From Hyaloraphidium curvatum (taxonomy: Eukaryota; Monoblepharomycota; Hyaloraphidiomycetes; Hyaloraphidiales; Hyaloraphidiaceae), in the NCBI GenBank assembly GCA_025558095.1, contig JAIVFI010000001.1:882501-946500 (forward strand): 64,000 bases of DNA. The letters run 5' to 3'. Positions 1,945 through 13,517 of this stretch are shown here, piece after piece. The position numbers and the translations under genes were made by a program. A model generated the notes under the pieces. That model worked only from the letters and a program-made list of their open reading frames with translations. It had not been told where the DNA came from and searched no databases. How positions within the stretch are numbered: the first letter of the stretch is position 1; each line of letters opens with the position of its first letter.

Positions 1945-2365
1945 GTGATGGGATGGACCACAATGCGACCATCAATGCAGAAAGTAGTGTACGACGTGGT
2001 GGTAAAATCATCTTTGACCGGGTGTGACACAAGATTCTCCACAGTCTCCTTGGGCCATGAGAAAGTGTCCTTCTCCCACATCTCCCTCCCATCTTCGCCG
2101 CCAAGACCGGAACATGAAGCAGGCGATGTCTTGCAAACGGGCAAGAAAGCAGCGTGAGGGCAATAGGGAGAGGAGAGAGACAGGTGCAGATGAGGCAGGT
2201 GATGCTCCTGGTGTTTGTTGTGTTATTCTCCCCTGAGTGACCGCCTCCCTAGGTAATTGCTAGCCAGAAACCATCGTCCCATCCAAGTCCAGTTGCAATG
2301 CCAAGTTCAACTCCAACTCGTCCCGAGGTTCCAAACACATCCATGCATCCCTGTGAGGACTTGAC
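1945..2365. mobile_element. Mosaic of two LINE fragments in opposite orientation
   Basis: Bases about 2030-2105 are the antisense of the LINE ORF segment that reads WEKDTFSWPKETVENL in the other copies. From about 2160 to 2365 the sequence is instead in LINE sense orientation. It matches the reverse complement of 13880-14065 closely (shared GACAGGTGC, GTGTTTGTTGTGTTAT, CCTAGGTAATTGCTAG and ATCCAAGTCCAG blocks). The two pieces come from different parts of the same element family, so this is rearranged transposon debris. No intact frame survives. Confidence 0.65.
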
Positions 2366-2399
2366 TTAGGGTAGTTGGAGCACTAGCGGGCAGCCAAGA

Positions 2400-2803
2400 G
2401 GCCATGTGCAAAAACCCTTTATATCATCGATTCTCACTATAATTACCCTTCGCCACCTTCAGCCTTGCTTGGTCCTGCCACGCCCTCTGGCAGGGCCCTG
2501 CCAGGATCTGCCCCCGATCCTGACAATCCCCAGGAACATGAGCCGACGAAGTTCGTGCCTGAATAGTATCATGATTTTCTGGAGGTCTTGCATGCGTGGG
2601 ACTTGGAGAAGCTTCCCCCTCACCAGCCGGGAGTGGATTTGGGGATCAATTTGCAGACAGTTGATCTCTCTCAACTTGACAACAAGCTCTTCAGCTTTTG
2701 GCACCACTTTGTCCCTTGCTGCTTACACGTCAAACTTCGGATGAAAGCCGTAGTTTGCAAAGAATACGTCATTTTTGTTGATGCATGGACGGAATTGATG
2801 TAG
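2400..2803 (+). mobile_element. Ty3/gypsy pol fragment (start of reverse transcriptase region)
   Basis: One frame encodes FVPEYHDFLEVLHAWDL followed by KLPPHQPGVDLGIN. This is the hallmark linker just before the reverse transcriptase domain of Ty3/gypsy (chromovirus-type) elements, which usually reads like EYHDFLDVF...LPPHRPYDHKI. Only this short stretch is recognisable; the catalytic core is absent. No LTRs are evident. With the integrase fragment near 9207-9560 it shows that an LTR retrotransposon once occupied or invaded this region. Confidence 0.6.
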
Positions 2804-2836
2804 GTAATTCCGCTAGAGGCAAGAGCTCTCCAGCTT

Positions 2837-3112
2837 AGAATAGTGTTGGTGACCCGGACCTGCCCCTGGCTTGGCCGCTGTTACACCATGAGTTTGCTGC
2901 TAATTGCAAAGTTCATCGTCGTCGTGTGTCTTTTTCATTTTCCCAGTTTTCCTGTCCTTCATGGACTTTGAGATGAAGCTGGCAATGGAGTTGAAGGCCT
3001 TCTCCTTCTGCCGCCTCGCTTTGATCGTGGGCTCGAACTCCTTGATGCTAAGAGCCCAGAGCCAGGTCTCCATGTTCCACTCGCGGCCTAGTGCTTCCAA
3101 TCTCGTGTAGTC
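2837..3112 (-). mobile_element. LINE 3' end: C-terminal ORF fragment plus tail
   Basis: On the minus strand this encodes the last ~70 residues of the LINE ORF (REWNMETWLWALSIKEFEP, then a Lys-rich end and ELCN stop). The family's 3' untranslated tail follows (TGGTGTAACAGCGGCCAAGC, then GGTCCGGGTCACCAA). Homologous copies lie at 9561-10218 and 11335-12007 in the opposite orientation. The copy is 5' truncated, as is typical of LINE insertions, and its tail lies toward lower coordinates. Confidence 0.8.
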
Positions 3113-4029: not shown

Positions 4030-4277
4030 GACCAGAACCAACACTGAACTTTTCAGGATCTAGATGAAGCTGCATGCCTGACATTGTACCCGCTGGATGA
4101 GAAGGTCCCAAAACCCAAACCGAAACCAAACTGCTCATTCTTTCTGGAAGGTTTTTCACCTTCGTGGGAAGGTTTTCCTGCCAGCAAACAACACCGGGAC
4201 TGGAGCATACTGTGGATTCAAGGGAAGGAGGAGGCAGATAGGTCGTCGACACAGCTAAACAAACCAATGGTGGTGTA

Positions 4278-4320
4278 ATAGCGGCCAAGCCAGGGGCAGG
4301 TCCGGGTCACCAATACCATA
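4278..4320 (+). mobile_element. Isolated LINE 3' tail, plus orientation
   Basis: GTGTAATAGCGGCCAAGCC, then AGGGGCAGGTCCGGGTCACC, then AATACCATACCCATACCCAT: the same 3' untranslated tail found at 10160-10218 and 11955-12007. Here it abuts, head to tail inverted, a minus-strand LINE ORF fragment at 4321. The terminal microsatellite differs (CCATA units rather than ATTCT). Confidence 0.75.
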
Positions 4321-4730
4321 CCCATACCCATTTCCGTGAATCTAGTCTGCAGCTTCTGGCGCCGCTCCGCATTTGCTGAACAGTGAAACAGAAAGTGTTG
4401 TTCGTCTCCAATGTGCTCAGGGTCATGCTTGCACGTTCTCTGCTGCACCTCAAGTCCTTGGTGCCTGCCTGTCTCCACCTCCAGGTCGTGGGTAGAGCAC
4501 AGCAACTTTTGGACATTGACATCCCTCCGGTGCTTCTCCACCCGGATCAGGGATGGTCCGATGTGGCCAAAGGTCATGTCACACATCCTCCAAAAGTGCA
4601 GTTTGTCGTTGTCCTTGAGCCTCTGGGCATTGATCTCCCTGAACTTGCCCTTCACAAGATTCTCCACAGTCTCCTTGGGCCATGAGAAAGTGTCCTTCTC
4701 CCACATGTCTCGGAGTCCCGACAACTTTGG
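4321..4730 (-). mobile_element. LINE ORF C-terminal fragment with CCHC-like zinc motif
   Basis: The minus strand encodes the C-terminal module of the LINE family: WEKDTFSWPKETVENLVK, RMCDMTFGHIGPSLIRV, then CKHDPEHIGDEQHFLFHC. The last block is a C-x(n)-H-x(n)-C motif of the kind found after the reverse transcriptase in many non-LTR elements. The frame breaks just after the motif, where the sequence switches to the plus-orientation tail at 4278-4320. It probably belongs to the same insertion as the reverse transcriptase at 5191-6330. Confidence 0.8.
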
Positions 4731-5190: not shown

Positions 5191-6330
5191 CTTTTGACTC
5201 GATTTTGTACCAAAATCTATAGTCAAAAGGCATGAACGGGTTCCCATATTGGCCCACTGCCTTGACCTTTGTGTTGTAGAGCTTGAGCTGGAGGTCAGGA
5301 CTCATCCCAGGCTGCTCCCTGATGTCACGGAGCCAGAGCCCATAAGCATCGCAGCGTTCATCTTGGCCTCTCTGCCATGCACATGGTCCTTGCTCCGGCC
5401 GGTTGAGGTCAGCTGATACCCCAGAAGCTTGAAGCTGTCAACCCTCTTCAGCTCCTGGTCCCTGTACATGAGCTTTACACGGTGAGGTATCTTCCTGGCC
5501 ATCCACTCTGTCTTGCTGACGTTGATCTCCAGCCCATTGGCACTGGCATATGCAGACAGAAGATCCAGCTGCATCTTGGCATCCTTCACCGTCTTCGAGA
5601 TCAAAGTGGTGTCGTCTGCAAAGAACAGAGCTAGCAAGCTGACCATCCTCTCCTGATCCTCTTCCTCCTCAGACACCATGCCCAGATCCATCCCTTTTGC
5701 ACCATTGGCCTCCATGAAAGCAGTGATGTCGTTGATGAACAAGATGAAGAACAGCGACGAGAGAGGGTCCCCCTGACTCCGGTCAGGAACTTGATGAAGT
5801 CTGACTTGGTCCCGTCTTCATCCCGGAGCCGTCCCCACACGCGCCCGAACGCCATCTCGAACATGTCAACAACCTGTTTGGGTACTCCCATCTCCTCCAG
5901 CTTCTGCCATAACCTGGGGCGCTCCACCGTGTCAAAAGCCTTTGTGAAATCTACAAACACCATGATCAGCTTCTCCTTGCGTGCCTTGGCCAGGGAGAAG
6001 AGTGCCTCGGCAAGGAGTACTGCATGAAGGGTCGATCTCCGTGCACGGAATCCAAACTGCGAGCCTTCCAGCAGCTTGTTGCACTCAGCCCAGGGAGCTA
6101 GCCGAGCGTTCCAGACCAGGGAGAAGACCTTCTCCAGCGTCCTCTCTATGCTGATGCCCCGGTAGTTGCCAGCCACGTTCTTGGGCCCCTTCTTGTGCAG
6201 CATCACCAGCAGTGTCTGGCCCCGCCAATCTTGCATGTCGACGCCATTGAGCACAACAGCTTGCTTCAGCACAGTGGTCCCGTACTTGACGAACTCGAGC
6301 CTGATCCCATCCTTATCCGCTGCCCTGCCG
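5191..6330 (-). mobile_element. LINE (non-LTR retrotransposon) reverse transcriptase, degraded
   Basis: The minus strand encodes reverse transcriptase landmarks in order: NVAGNYRGISI (fingers), SQFGFRARRSTLHA, FVDFTKAFDTV (first catalytic Asp), FADDTTLISKT (the xADD catalytic motif), NGLEINVSKTEWM, and a thumb-like LKLYNTKVKAVGQYGN. This order and the F-ADD box are typical of LINE-type enzymes. The frame shifts between about 5740 and 5640 and again near 5300, so the copy is dead unless the shifts are sequencing errors. The MetH-containing ORF at 6331-9252 lies immediately upstream in LINE sense. Confidence 0.88.
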
Positions 6331-8095
6331 TTAGGAGCCTTTGGGGTGCAGCAGGTTCCCAGGAGGCGTGATTGTGGCCTTGGGGAGCGGTGGGAACGTG
6401 AGCCTGGGGTCTTCCTCGATGTTGGTCACGTATTCGGCGCTGGCCACCATCTCCATGTGGCGTACCAGCTCCGCAAAGGGCACGGGGTTGCCCTTCCGCC
6501 TTGCATAAGTCTTCCCAAGCAGTTGGTAGTATTCGAGCTGCTGGCGCAGGAAGTGGAAGGTGTGGAGCACCTGCGTCCGGGATTCGTCGGCGTAGATTTC
6601 GACGGAGTCGCCGACGGAGTTGGCGGGCCAGAACGTGAGCACGGCCTGCGGTTGGAAACGGTTCTCGGCGATGATGCGCTCAAACAGCTTCTTCGCGTCG
6701 GCGAAGAGCTTGGTGGCCTCGGCGCTGACGACCTCGTCGGTGAGGATCTCGGGGTAGCGACCGTGGAGCTCCCACGCGCTGAAGAACGGGCCCCAGTCGA
6801 TGAACTCGCGGTCGAGCAACTCGCGCACGGACACGTCTCTGAAAATGCGCGTGCCCAAAAACTCGGGACGCGGGATGTCGACGGTGGTCCAGTCGGATTT
6901 GAATGCGCGGGCGCGGGCGTCGGCAAGCGGGAGCAGCGGGCGGGTGGAGCGACGGTTGGCGAAGTCGGCGCGGGATTTTTCCTGCTTTGCGCGGACGTCA
7001 GCGACGTAGGCGGGCTTGTTGTCCGTGCTGAGGAGCTGCGAGACGACGCCGATGACGCGCGAGGCGTCGAGCACGTGGATGACGGGCTCGGAGTAGTGTG
7101 GCGTGATCTTCACGGCGTTGTGCGCGGCGGAGGTGGTGGCGCCGCCGATGAGCAGAGGGATCTTGAAACCCTGGCGCTCCATCTCCTTCGCGACGTGGAC
7201 CATCTCGTCGAGGGACGGCGTGATCAGGCCGGAGAGGCCGATGACGTCGACGTTTCTCTCCTTGGCGGCGGCGAGGATTTTTTCGCACGGCACCATCACG
7301 CCGAGGTCGATGACCTCGTAGTTATTACAGGCGAGGACGACTCCGACGATGTTCTTGCCGATGTTGTGAACGTCGCCCTTGACGGTGGCCATGATGATCT
7401 TGCCCTGGGCCTTGGCGGTGCCGCCGGAGGCAATGAGGGCGGCTTTCTCGGCCTCCATGAAGGGCTGGAGGTAGGCGACGGCCTTCTTCATCACGCGGGC
7501 GGATTTCACGACCTGCGGAAGAAACATTTTGCCCGCGCCGAAGAGGTCGCCGACGACGCGCATGCCGTCCATGAGCGGGCCTTCGATGATGGCGAGCGGC
7601 TTGCCATATTTCTGGCGGGCTTCCTCGGTGTCGGTGTCGATCCAGGCGTCGATGCCTTTGACGAGGGCGTGCGAGAGGCGTTCCTCGACGGTGAGGCTTC
7701 GCCAAGCCTCAGCAGTTGAAGGTTGAGAGTTGAGAGTTGAGGGTTGGCCGGAGTGGGCGGCTTTGAGTTTTTCGCCGTGCTCGACGAGGCGCTCGGTGGC
7801 GTCGGGGCGGCGGTTGAGGAGGACGTCCTCGACGAGGACGAGCAGCTCCTTGTCCACCTCCTCGTAGACCTCGAGCATGGCGGGGTTGACGATGCCCATG
7901 TCCATGCCGGCGCGGATGGCGTGGTAGAGGAATGCGGCGTGCATGGCCTCGCGCACGGGGTTGTTGCCGCGGAAGCTGAAGGAGACGTTGGAGACGCCGC
8001 CGGAGACTTTGGCGTGCGGGAGGTTTTGTTTTATCCAGCACGTGGCCTCGATGAAATCGACGGCGTAGTTGTTGTGCTCCTCGATGCCGGTGCCG

Positions 8096-8136
<41 letters not shown>

Positions 8137-9252
8137 GAAGCCGACCTGGTCCACGAGGAGGCGGTAGGCGCGTTCGCAGATGCGGATTTTCTCGGCGTAG
8201 GAGGCGGCCTGGCCGTTTTCGTCGAAGGCCATGACGACGACGGCGGCGCCGTAGCGGAGGATGGTGCGGGGGCAGTCGACGAACGCCTCTTCGCCCTCCT
8301 TGAGCGAAATGGAGTTGACGATGCCCTTGCCCTGAAGGCATTTCAGGCCGGCCTCGATGACCTCCCACTTCGAGGAGTCCACCATGACGGGGACCTTGGC
8401 GATCTCGGGCTCGGAGGCGATGAGCTGGAGGAAGCGCGACATGGCAGCGACGCCGTCGATGAGGCCGTCGTCCATGCAGACGTCGATGACGTTGGAACCG
8501 TTGTCGACCTGCTGGCGGGCAACGGAGACGGCTTCCTCGTAGGCGCCCGCTTTGACGAGTTTGGCGAACTTGGGCGAGCCAGCGACGTTGGTGCGTTCGC
8601 CGACCATGAGGAAGCTGCCGAGCTGCTGGGTGAACGGCAGGCCCTTAGGCTCTCGCCTGAAGAATGGTTCCAGCAGCTCAGAGTTCTTGTGCTCCGTGAT
8701 CTTCCGCATCTTCTTCTCCAGCTTCTTCCTCTCCTTCTCCAGCTCTCGCGCCTTCCCTTGGTACTCCTTCTTCCACTCCTCCTTCTCCATGAGGGATCGC
8801 AGCTCAAGAAGGCTTGACAGCTTGCGGTCGATCTTGGTCCTCTCCGCCGAATCCGCAAAGCCTTTCAGGAACTTATCAGCCTCCTCATGTACGCTGACCT
8901 CGTCGTACTTCCTCTTTGCCACCTTGTTCACCGCCGCCATGATCTGTATCAGCTGATTGCACTTGTCCGAGCCAGCTTCCATCTGCTCGTACTCCTGCAT
9001 AGACTCTTTCACCCACGCCTTGTCCCAGAGATTTTGCATGATCACGAGGAAGTAGAAGTCGCAGGGCACGTGTTTGCCACGTGACTTGTTCTCCTTTGCG
9101 GTTGGTCGCTTGACGTTGACCTCGATGGTCATGCTCAGCGCCATATGAGCTGAGGTGACGACCCGCCAACCCTCCTTCACAAAGGCGAGCTCGGTCATCA
9201 ATCTCAATGAAATCCATTGTAGAACCACCTGAGTCTGCTGAGGGCCGAACAT
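6331..9252 (-). CDS. metH: 973-codon chimeric ORF with a bacterial-type cobalamin-dependent methionine synthase core
   Basis: Residues about 205-900 match the middle of MetH. First comes the methyltetrahydrofolate-binding domain ([27 protein letters not shown]). Next is the cobalamin domain with the axial-ligand motif GDVHNIG (DxHxxG) followed by [11 protein letters not shown] and LIGGATTS. Last is the start of the activation domain ([20 protein letters not shown]). The N-terminal zinc/homocysteine domain and the end of the activation domain with its AdoMet motif are absent, so it cannot be a working methionine synthase. Residues 1-200 are unrelated and include a Lys/Glu coiled coil (about 120-195). 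The last ~65 residues are also foreign. The core is richer in GC than its flanks, and a (GTTGAGA)-type microrepeat sits in the linker before the cobalamin domain. The ORF has no stop. It could be transfer, retrotransposon capture or assembly contamination. Confidence 0.8.
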
Positions 9253-9560
9253 GCATTCTCACAGTTGTAGACAGACTCTCCAAACAAGTGCACTTTCCGG
9301 ACTTCAAGAAGCTGCCAGATTCGGAACAAAGGGCAAAGAACTTCCTGAAGCACGTTTTCAAAGAGCATTCCCGGATGAGATCATTTCGGCAGAGGGACCC
9401 AGTTCTTGTCAAAGTTCTGGAACCGTCTCACGGAGCTGTGTGACGTGAAGGTGAAAATGTCAACATCTTTTCACCCACAAACAGATGGAATTGTCAACCA
9501 GACTCTAGAGCAGTACCTCAGAGCGTTTGTGAATCGCGATCAGGACAGCTGTATACTATG
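9207..9560 (+). mobile_element. Ty3/gypsy integrase fragment, frameshifted
   Basis: Three plus frames together show the integrase core landmarks: [14 protein letters not shown] (first catalytic Asp region), a degraded DRDP-type block, FWNRLTELCDVKVKMSTSFH, then PQTDGIVNQTLEQYLRAFV (third catalytic Glu region). At least two frameshifts separate them, so the copy is inactive. It overlaps the 5' end of the MetH-containing ORF on the other strand and stops where a LINE copy begins at about 9560. Confidence 0.8.
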
Positions 9561-10218
9561 GCGGCGAAGATGGGAGGGAGATGTGGGAGAAGGACACTTT
9601 CTCATGGCCTAAGGAGACTGTGGAGAATCTTGTGAAGGGCAAGTTCAGGGAGATCAATGCCCAGAGGCTCAAGGACAACGACAAACTGCACTATTGGAGG
9701 ATGTGTGACATGACCTTTGGCCACATCGGACCATCCCTGATCCGGGTGGAGAAGCACCGGAGGGATGTCCAAAAGTTGCTGTGCTCTACCCACGACCTGG
9801 AGGTGGAGACAGGCAGGCACCAAGGACTTGCTATTGAGGTGCAGCAGAGAACGTGCAAGCATGACCCTGAGCACATTGGAGACGAACAACACTTTCTGTT
9901 TCACTGTTCAGCAAATGCGGAGCGGCGCCAGAAGCTGCAGACTAGATTGGAAGCACTAGGCCGCGAGTGGAACATGGAGACCTGGCTCTGGGCTCTCAGC
10001 ATCAAGGAGTTCGAGCCCACAATCAAAGCGAGGCGGCAGAAGGAGAAGGCCCTCAACTCCATTGCCAGCTTCATCTCAAAGTCCATGAAGGACAGGAAAA
10101 CTGGGAAAATGAAAAAGACACACGACGACGATGAACTTTGCAATTAGCAGCAAACTCATGGTGTAACAGCGGCCAAGCCAGGGGCAGGTCCGGGTCACCA
10201 ATACTATTCTATTCTATT
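9561..10218 (+). mobile_element. 5'-truncated LINE copy with C-terminal ORF and (ATTCT)n tail
   Basis: The frame is open from about 9560 to the stop at 10147. It contains WEKDTFSWPKETVENLVKGK, RMCDMTFGHIGPSLIRV, the zinc-like motif CKHDPEHIGDEQHFLFHC, and a basic C-terminus (KARRQKEKALNSI, KDRKTGKMKK). The 3' UTR follows: GTGTAACAGCGGCCAAGCC, then GGTCCGGGTCACCAATA. It ends in a short microsatellite, CTATTCTATTCTATTCTA. This is the best preserved C-terminal copy in the window. The reverse transcriptase is missing, so it is a 5'-truncated insertion. Confidence 0.85.
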
Positions 10219-10860: not shown

Positions 10861-13517
10861 GCAGATTGACTCTGGGCCGCAGTTGGGTCCTGACCCTTCG
10901 GTGGAGGAGCTCATAGCCTACATCAACCATCCTTCAAGGATCCTGGACATTGATCTGGAGGAAAAATGCCTGAAGCTTCTAAAGGCCATGACAAAAAGGA
11001 AGAACTGCAACAAGGAGCAAGCACGATCCTGCTACCTTTGGGGCAAACGCATCCTGGCACTTCATCTGGCGGTTTTGCAGGGCAAACCAACCCCCGTGGG
11101 GACGGGTATGTGTGTGCTGGGCGGGGGGGGGGGGGGGGGCACTGGAAAGTCGTTTGTGGATGAGGTGACATTGATGCTTGCACAAGCATTGGGCAGAGGC
11201 GAATGAATGCGTGCAGCTGCCTACACTGGATCGGCCGCTTCTGGGTTGCAACAGCTGACCCTGCATTGTACCTGCTCTACAAGGAGCTCAAGATCGAGGC
11301 ACTGAAGGGTGCTGGAACTGGGCTGCCTTCCTGAGGGAACTACTTGTGTACTATGGTGGAGAGGAGGGGAGGGAGATGTGGGAGAAGGACACTTTTTCAT
11401 GGGCCAAGGAGACTGTGGAGAATCTTGTGAAGAACAAGTCTAGGGAGATCAATGCATGCCCAGAAGCTCAAGGACAACGACAAGCTGCACATCTGGAGGA
11501 TGTGTGACATGACCTTTGGTCACATTGCACCGTCGCTGATCCGGGTGATGGAGAAGCACCGGAGGGACGTCCAGAAGCTGCTCTGCTCTACCCACGATCT
11601 GGAGGTGGAAACAGGCAGGCACCAAGGACTTGCTATTGAGGTGCAGCAGAGAACGTGCAAGCATGACCCTGAGCACATTGGAGATGAACAACATTTTCTG
11701 TTCCACTGTTCAGAAAATGCAGAGCGGCGCCAGAAGCTGCAGACCAGACTGGAAGCACTGGGCCACGAGTGGAACATGGAGACCTGGCTCTGGGCTCTCA
11801 GCATCAAGGAGTTCGAGCCCACGATCAAAGTGAGGCGGCAAAAGGAGACGGCCCTCAACTCCATTGCCAGCTTCATCTCAAAGTCCATGAAGGACAGAAA
11901 ACGGGGAAAATGAAAAAGATGCACGACGACAAAATTCAAATTAGCAGCAAACTGATGGTGTAACAGCAGCCAAGCCAGGGGCAGGTCCGGGTCACCAATA
12001 CTATTCTACTCATGGCAAGAAAAGCACCCTGCATGGTTTCCTTATGCTGTTGGTCCTGGAGAACAATGACAAAACAACGGAGCAATTCAAAAAGAGCTTG
12101 CGGCACCTCGAGGAGCACAAGGATGCTCTGCGTGCAGAGCTGTGCGACGTGTGGTTCCTGAGCCTTGATGAGATGGGAATGTGCGGACTGCGCATGATGG
12201 TGCTGCTGGACCACGGTCTGAAGGTTGCCAAACACCCTTAATATCCCGAGGCGGCAACCCTTGATGATGTTCCTGGATTTCGGTGGCATTGACATCAAGT
12301 TCTCTGGGTTCTTTTTCCAGCTTGCTCCGGTCCAGGACAGTGGGCTCTATTGCCGCACCAAACTTTCGGATGACTTGCTTGCTGTGCGCACGGTTTGGGA
12401 ACACTATGTTACCAAGGCGGTCGAGCTGGTCATCAATCACCGCACCATTGGCCGGCTTGCGGAAATTCTTCTTGCCATCCGCAGTGGCCAAGCAACCATG
12501 CGCAATATTCTGGACTTGCAGGCACGGTGCATTGGGCTGGCAACGTGCCCGATGGGGCATCCCCGTGCCAGCCATGCCATCAAACTGACTGACCCCGAGT
12601 GGATGAATGCCGTGGTGATTACCCTGAGCAACCTGGCCAAGGAGGCGTTCAACATGGATGCTGCCGTTGCTTACGCTTTGCGTACCGGCAAAACCCTCCA
12701 CCTAATCCAGGCGGTTGACAGCCCCACCAAGCCAAGGAAATCCAAAACAAAACCCAATCCACAGCCGAGCCGTGCTATGAGCGCTCTGACATCTGCAGAC
12801 AAGAAGCAGCTGCTTGCCTTGCCGGACAGCAGCTTCAAGTACAGGTCCGGTTACCTTCCCTGGCTTGAGGGCATGCCGGCCTTCTTCCGGTCGAACCTTG
12901 CCGTCAGTGCTGGAATATCCAATGGGACACTGGGAAAGGCGGGCCCCATCCACTATGCAGTGCCTTTGGACGCCAGCCGCTGGGTATACGACACTCGGTA
13001 TCCCGATTTGGATGTACGGGTGGTGCCGCCTCCAGATGTGGCCATGGTGTCCATCCCCAACCCTCCCAGGCCTTTCAAGTTGTCGAGCAACATTGGGTGG
13101 AATGAGGTGCCTGTTTATCCGACGACGCAAAGCAAACGGGTTGCGCTGCCCCATGAAGGAAGCCAACGGAAGAAGCACCGGGCCATCTCGAGGCCCCAGT
13201 TGCACGTGAGCCCGGGATGGGCCATGACTGCGCACTTTGCCCAAGGACACACACTGGATAAAGTGTGCCTAGACTTTTCCTTGGACGGTACCTGTGGGAC
13301 ATGGTCCATCCTGCAATTCCTGTACGTCATGCTGTCCCGTGCACGGAGTCTGGATGACGTTGTCTTGACGGGGATGCTCAATGGCAAGGTTGTGGTGGCC
13401 AAGCTGTTGGGCGGATTCAGCGAGGACATACTGGCCGAGATGGAACGGCTGAGGAAACTGGGGAGGCAGACCCAGGTGGCACAATCGGTGTTTTTGGCAA
13501 GGATGGAGGGCATGTGA
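10861..13517 (+). pseudogene. PIF1-like helicase relic, split by a nested LINE
   Basis: The first segment (10883-11330) carries a Walker A motif, GGGGTGKSF, encoded partly by a 17-base G run at 11123-11139. After the LINE (11335-12007) the frame resumes with STLHGFLML, a Walker B-like WFLSLDEMGMCGLRMM, and a motif III region (FFFQLAPVQDSG). Near the end come AHFAQGHTLDKVCLDFS and FLYVMLSRARSLDDVVLTG, the classical motifs V/VI of PIF1/RecD2-type superfamily 1B helicases. Frameshifts occur (for example near 12240), so it is inactive. Such helicases occur both as host genes and as the C-terminal domain of Helitron transposases; no Rep domain is visible, so the origin is undecided. Confidence 0.75.
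11335..12007 (+). mobile_element. LINE copy nested in the PIF1-like relic
   Basis: It begins with the shared upstream motif TACTATGGTGGAGAGGAGG and encodes the same C-terminal module (RMCDMTFGHIAPSLIRV, CKHDPEHIGDEQHFLFHC). The frame has a small insertion (one extra codon and a frameshift near 11455) relative to the copy at 9561. It ends in the family's 3' tail and ACCAATACTATTCTA. Helicase sequence resumes directly at about 12008. The LINE therefore inserted after the helicase was already present, splitting it between motif I and the TLHGFL block. Confidence 0.82.

Follow-up and report, generated by a model that had tools for sequence, protein, structure and literature searches.

Most reported transfers from bacteria to eukaryotes concern old, selected genes whose route of entry has been lost. 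The closest described systems for the locus presented here include nuclear insertions of mitochondrial DNA (numts) and other DNA taken up as filler by end joining. According to the available part of one study (PMC2567098), 30 of the 71 primate numts analysed on both sides are blunt on both (single common bases being counted as blunt), with deletions in 7 of these 30. In the same part of that source, AAV filler DNA comes mostly with deletions (24 of 26 spontaneous cases and 22 of 23 at I-SceI breaks).

We analysed a stretch of 64,000 nucleotides (hereafter the window) from the 31.9-Mb, 55-contig assembly of Hyaloraphidium curvatum, described in the accessible part of PMC8371127 as a non-flagellated fungus of the Monoblepharidomycota. 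According to the list of open reading frames, the minus strand has a frame of 973 codons without a stop (9252-6331), and a fragment of a bacterial methionine synthase gene (metH) lies inside it. The features of the locus are the following.

5232-6341, minus strand: remainder of the interrupted LINE copy, whose reverse transcriptase (RT) domain is divided between two frames (RVT_1 in 5631-6272 and 5302-5742).
6341/6342, minus strand: site of a 32-base gap in the LINE copy relative to the other copies aligned here, followed shortly by the end of the ORF at 6331.
6342-6532, minus strand: downstream half of LINE ORF2, 87-95% identical to other copies, in which it is contiguous with the upstream half.
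6533-8641, minus strand: bacterial metH fragment of 2109 bp or 703 codons, delimited by the ORF, Pfam, protein matches and the joints against LINE copies.
8642-9195, minus strand: upstream half of LINE ORF2, from between endonuclease and RT, 80-88% identical to the copies compared and 5'-truncated at about 9195.
9196-9252, minus strand: initial codons of the ORF, where the LINE match is absent; edge of a stretch (9193-9551) common to another locus (L138, 5199-5567).
9255-9545, plus strand: remnant of a gypsy-type integrase, recognised by eye and with approximate limits, adjoining the truncated LINE.

The metH fragment spans the end of the linker between the homocysteine and pterin domains, the pterin-binding domain, the cobalamin cap and Rossmann domains, and the first third of the activation domain. 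Pfam placed Pterin_bind at ORF residues 218-456 (2.5e-62), B12-binding_2 at 522-595 and B12-binding at 617-710, i.e. the pterin-binding and both cobalamin domains of a functional MetH are present. The activation domain is incomplete, Met_synt_B12 being matched at residues 815-907 over profile positions 6-98 of 273 only. Pfam detected no homocysteine-binding domain (S-methyl_trans) in the ORF, and elsewhere in the genome that region was matched by the native gene only. The NCBIfam MetH models TIGR02082 and NF007024 match residues 204-908 and 212-908, respectively, with scores below their curated cut-offs (984.7 < 1010.85 and 1156 < 1497). The first-pass annotation had described a bacterial MetH core at residues 205-900 of an open 973-codon ORF, with both catalytic ends missing and the frame nevertheless intact. 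These domains, together with the identity of about 90% to Opitutaceae-type MetH reported below, bear this description out, and the limits it gave were nearly exact: the whole-ORF search of the organism's own genome located the joints between residues 204 and 205 and between 907 and 908.

The fusion might have been kept as a functional chimeric gene for folate or cobalamin binding. Its 703 codons without a stop or frame break, the pterin and both B12 domains and a 799-aa prediction from the window's contig in the protein database (P0002) would fit such a gene, but the homocysteine domain is missing, as is most of the activation domain, the scores stay under the curated MetH cut-offs, the host has its own MetH, and otherwise invariant positions are changed, if anything, more often than in relatives (see below). 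We therefore regard this explanation as very improbable and the fragment as having no likely function. A tally of B12 enzymes by domain content would nevertheless enter the locus as one more fungal MetH.

Residues 200-910 are covered to 99% by the nearest other proteins, at about 90% identity (among the best 120 of 7999 scored; scoring was limited to candidates sharing most words, and the top row was the window's own prediction). The organism names among the matches listed are Rariglobus, Lacunisphaera, Opitutus and Didemnitutus, or Opitutaceae, Opitutia and Verrucomicrobia. The closest species genome is a Verrucomicrobia MAG from Lake Pavin (90%), followed by others at 70-71% (best 80 of 596 matches). 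Of 150 genomes drawn from the family of this MAG, 132 contain a match with an E value of 1e-100 or less; in the best of them, identity across the entire query is 86-90%. A tree built from 21 nucleotide sequences clusters the insert with five members of the family (L104-L108), and the next node out, which adds three more sequences, is labelled 100 (the tree was rerooted). A protein tree of 87 rows places it in a clade of 42 (support 1.0), within which it belongs to a clade of 39 (0.923) and pairs weakly with P0007 (0.678). Its GC3 (0.89) is bacterial-like, that of the relative L024 being 0.86. The insert also carries a linker repeat, TCAACTCTCAAC, found at the same metH position in the relative L105; elsewhere among 142 loci only L118 has it, copies of the insert aside. 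By these comparisons the donor was demonstrably a bacterium of the Opitutaceae type. When the repeat was used as a tracer of other Opitutaceae DNA in the host assembly, the insert alone matched; this negative is weak, because a relative's genome (G001) was likewise without a match. As a separate observation, four of the 120 listed MetH relatives (P0031, P0032, P0034 and P0035) are 1642-1685 aa long and have an extra PF06414 domain, which we take to be of the zeta-toxin family.

A native MetH is expected in Hyaloraphidium, because cobalamin use is general in non-Dikarya fungi (PMC8085122, available part, in which Hyaloraphidium does not appear by name). A full-length bacterial relative (P0003, 1326 aa), residues 431-1134 of which match the insert at 90%, otherwise matched only contig C17 in the genome search (residues 26-126, 147-402, 440-813 and 797-1306, at 42-61%). 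Its parts outside the insert match only this C17 gene, at 42-53%. The C17 gene consists of several exons and is, on sequence grounds, the host's own MetH. With the same query, no donor-like metH sequence was found in the assembly besides the insert. Likewise, the MetH part of the ORF occurs once at 100% and otherwise matches only the native gene, at 51-61%. Further genomic copies, for which the first-pass annotation had advised looking, were thus not found, nor was a second copy of the LINE-metH fusion.

What surrounds the insert is repetitive. The whole ORF gave at least 67 matches in its own genome, the repeated parts being residues 18-204 and 908-970; by their position in the better preserved copies, these parts are segments of LINE ORF2 between the endonuclease and RT. 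An empty site exists, because for 27 of the 30 downstream LINE pieces elsewhere the upstream counterpart is no more than 6 bp away (24 are directly adjacent; the exceptions are C36, C35:152695 and C25). In 17 of 18 loci (L007-L023 and L137) the LINE DNA runs uninterrupted through GAGAGCCTAAGGG, G or A, and TACTACC, with single-base variants in two of the loci (L019 and L021). The window version reads GAGAGCCTAAGGG, 2109 bases, (A)TACTACC; the comparison is one with paralogous LINE copies rather than with an allele. On each side the closest copy spanning both flanks is the same (L022 on C26; 87.5% left, 91% right), and therefore both flanks represent one kind of element. The C36 copy is closer on the right (94.7%), but only 34 bp are kept on its left. 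The idea that it marks another break at this site was rejected, since its LINE sequence goes on about 34 bp further.

These relationships modify the first-pass view of the surroundings. It had treated the N-terminal coiled coil and the C-terminal tail as unrelated to MetH, which is correct, but the two are adjacent pieces of a single LINE ORF2. The RT that it placed next door is present; because both flanks are LINE ORF2, it is the continuation of the interrupted element, not a separate one. The adjoining gypsy integrase survives as a remnant at about 9255-9545, on recognition by eye only. Elsewhere in the window (2028-3106, 4271-4709, 9550-10217 and 11250-12011) the 3' part of this LINE recurs as fragments in both orientations, forming a nest of truncated copies. 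Better preserved copies lie on other contigs: on C42, an ORF2 that is open for 1111 aa matches a reverse transcriptase at 106 bits and an endonuclease at 26.1, just below the cut-off of 27.4, and the C21 copy is preceded by a frame of 466 aa, its likely ORF1, with zero Pfam matches. On C42 two tail-to-tail copies (L135, 1667-8231) have ORF2 frames of 1111 and 1052 aa with nearly the same sequence, and the LINE family looks recently active because of these long open, nearly identical frames.

At the insertion point zero LINE bases are missing and zero are duplicated. Neither a target-site duplication nor a 3' tail or poly-A, as would mark a LINE retrocopy, was seen at the limits of the insert. 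Donor bases at the joints were judged from relatives, not from the actual donor. The left joint reads GGG|C, and no microhomology is seen there, because the leucine codon is preceded by TCC in four and by TCG in three of seven donor relatives. On the right, one A may be common to LINE and donor, because five of the seven relatives have GAA as the last codon; base 6532 (A) could thus come from either, as a 1-bp microhomology. Such a pattern is common for numt-type filler, given the 30 of 71 primate numts blunt on both sides.

The first-pass annotation had offered capture by a LINE as one option. Such capture could take the form of an RT template switch to bacterial RNA, or the gene could be carried along by the element. 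The sense orientation within ORF2 and the in-frame fusion would agree with it. However, the LINE resumes at the adjacent base without loss, target duplication and poly-A are unseen at the joints, and the fusion has no second copy in the genome. In addition, the copy itself was not competent: it starts inside ORF2 (at about 9195), so that ORF1 and the larger share of the endonuclease region are missing, and its RT is split. Being 5'-truncated and broken, it is not expected to have mobilised a gene, and we consider capture by the LINE extremely unlikely. As to the fusion, an in-frame sense junction has a chance of 1/2 x 1/3 x 1/3 = 1/18 by our own arithmetic; it is unusual, is no proof of selection and could be due to chance.

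Terminal repeats with a target duplication, of the LTR- or DNA-element type, are likewise absent from the joints, unlike those of a copia-like element in another LINE copy. That copy is the 18th locus mentioned above (L011, on C35), in which a copia-like element of 3.35 kb, having terminal repeats and a duplicated CTAAG, lies 2-3 bp from the point of the metH insertion (L134, 2385-5737; reverse-transcriptase and zinc-knuckle proteins recognised by eye). A copia integrase as the maker of the break was rejected, as the metH joint is 2 bp outside the CTAAG duplication. The site between endonuclease and RT might be a break-prone spot that repeatedly takes in unrelated DNA (metH on C1, the copia-like element on C35), with dead LINEs serving as a landing pad for environmental bacterial DNA, but we give this idea little credence. 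The filler explanation preferred below leaves the proximity of the two insertions unaccounted for, as a coincidence.

The insert could also be an artefact, a fragment from culture bacteria joined to fungal DNA during library making or assembly. It is almost unmutated and bacterial in composition, and the available part of PMC8085122 mentions contaminants in a fungal MetH tree and data set, where sequences of bacteria had been assigned to fungi by mistake. On the other hand, the sequence on either side of the insert belongs to a single LINE copy and is resumed at the neighbouring base, which would need two chimeric joins without base loss, and an assembly join through repeats would still require real LINE-metH molecules at each end. 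The assembly has no other donor-like metH, and the insert's contig is 1.6 Mb long. Searches of the assembly with TonB-barrel, prepilin N_methyl and COX1 gave zero matches, a light test of contamination elsewhere. The clean empty site in particular makes a chimeric assembly, another option of the first-pass annotation, unlikely, and we judge an artefact of any kind improbable, if less so than the alternatives above. The joined molecule probably exists in the fungal cell.

The age of the insertion was approached through invariant alignment columns. At 327 columns invariant in all 139 other sequences (119 proteins and 20 loci), the insert departs at four. Among the 139 others, three have more changes at such columns (12, 10 and 7) and three have an equal number. 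At a looser threshold of 97%, the insert has five changes versus 0-4 in 27 sequences of similar nearest-neighbour identity. Its four changes are high for so close a sequence, yet within the range of a few relatives, and they neither prove nor exclude time spent in the fungus. For neutral divergences of 1%, 1.5% and 2%, simulations (assumed mutation bias, 400 runs per point) gave probabilities of 0.155, 0.015 and 0/400, respectively, for at most four such changes and no stop. On this simple model, neutral divergence since bacterial selection ended would be below about 1-1.5%, which points to a short period of neutral evolution in the fungus. The first-pass option of an insertion that is decaying is supported as regards a plain insertion into a dead LINE, by virtue of the empty site, but not as regards decay, with no stop and no frame break seen.

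Other candidate signals of age were less useful. CpG-deamination or RIP-like decay was rejected as a dating signal, with 8 CpG transitions at 330 CpG sites in the insert versus 0-14 at 314-362 sites in five relatives. Non-CpG C>T/G>A changes at columns identical in 20 others number 8 in the insert and 0-14 in the others, mostly 0-3 at similar branch lengths, at most a weak hint. An excess of amino-acid change was also rejected: in a six-sequence set the insert has 22 nonsynonymous and 24 synonymous unique changes versus 31 and 118 pooled in five relatives, and its counts include stem changes of the others because it is the outgroup of that set.

Overall, the locus is best explained, and with considerable confidence, as a recent capture of Opitutaceae-type bacterial DNA as end-joining filler in a dead LINE copy. 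Bacterial DNA would have been taken up by the fungus, a dead and 5'-truncated copy of the LINE in the Hyaloraphidium nucleus would have suffered a double-strand break, and end joining would have sealed this break with a 2.1-kb piece of that DNA as filler, in the manner of a numt. After a few searches, only one such bacterial insert is known in the assembly. Among the openly licensed papers on Hyaloraphidium that were listed, no title concerned the insertion. Confirmation would make it a bacterial insertion of very recent date in a fungal chromosome, for which the two joints, the empty site and the donor group can all be read at base resolution. A recent fragment without apparent function bears on how bacterial DNA enters.

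Compared with MetH proper (TIGR02082 / PRK09490), the insert shares the pterin, B12 cap and B12 Rossmann domains and about 90% identity to Opitutaceae-type MetH; it differs in being without the homocysteine domain and in an activation domain that ends after about a third. With bacteria-to-eukaryote lateral gene transfer, as presented in the available parts of PMC3798261 and PMC9255765, it has in common bacterial coding DNA on a nuclear contig, whereas a functionless-looking fragment and an empty site visible in paralogous LINE copies set it apart. Unlike AAV filler in the part of PMC2567098 available, the metH insertion is without deletion. From the numts of that source it differs in its bacterial instead of mitochondrial donor, its fungal host and in being one case here. 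It resembles numts and other filler inserted by non-homologous end joining (NHEJ), as described there, in its single insertion point with a recognisable empty site, in joints that are blunt or have 0-1 bp of microhomology, without target duplication or deletion, and in fragment ends that ignore gene and domain limits.
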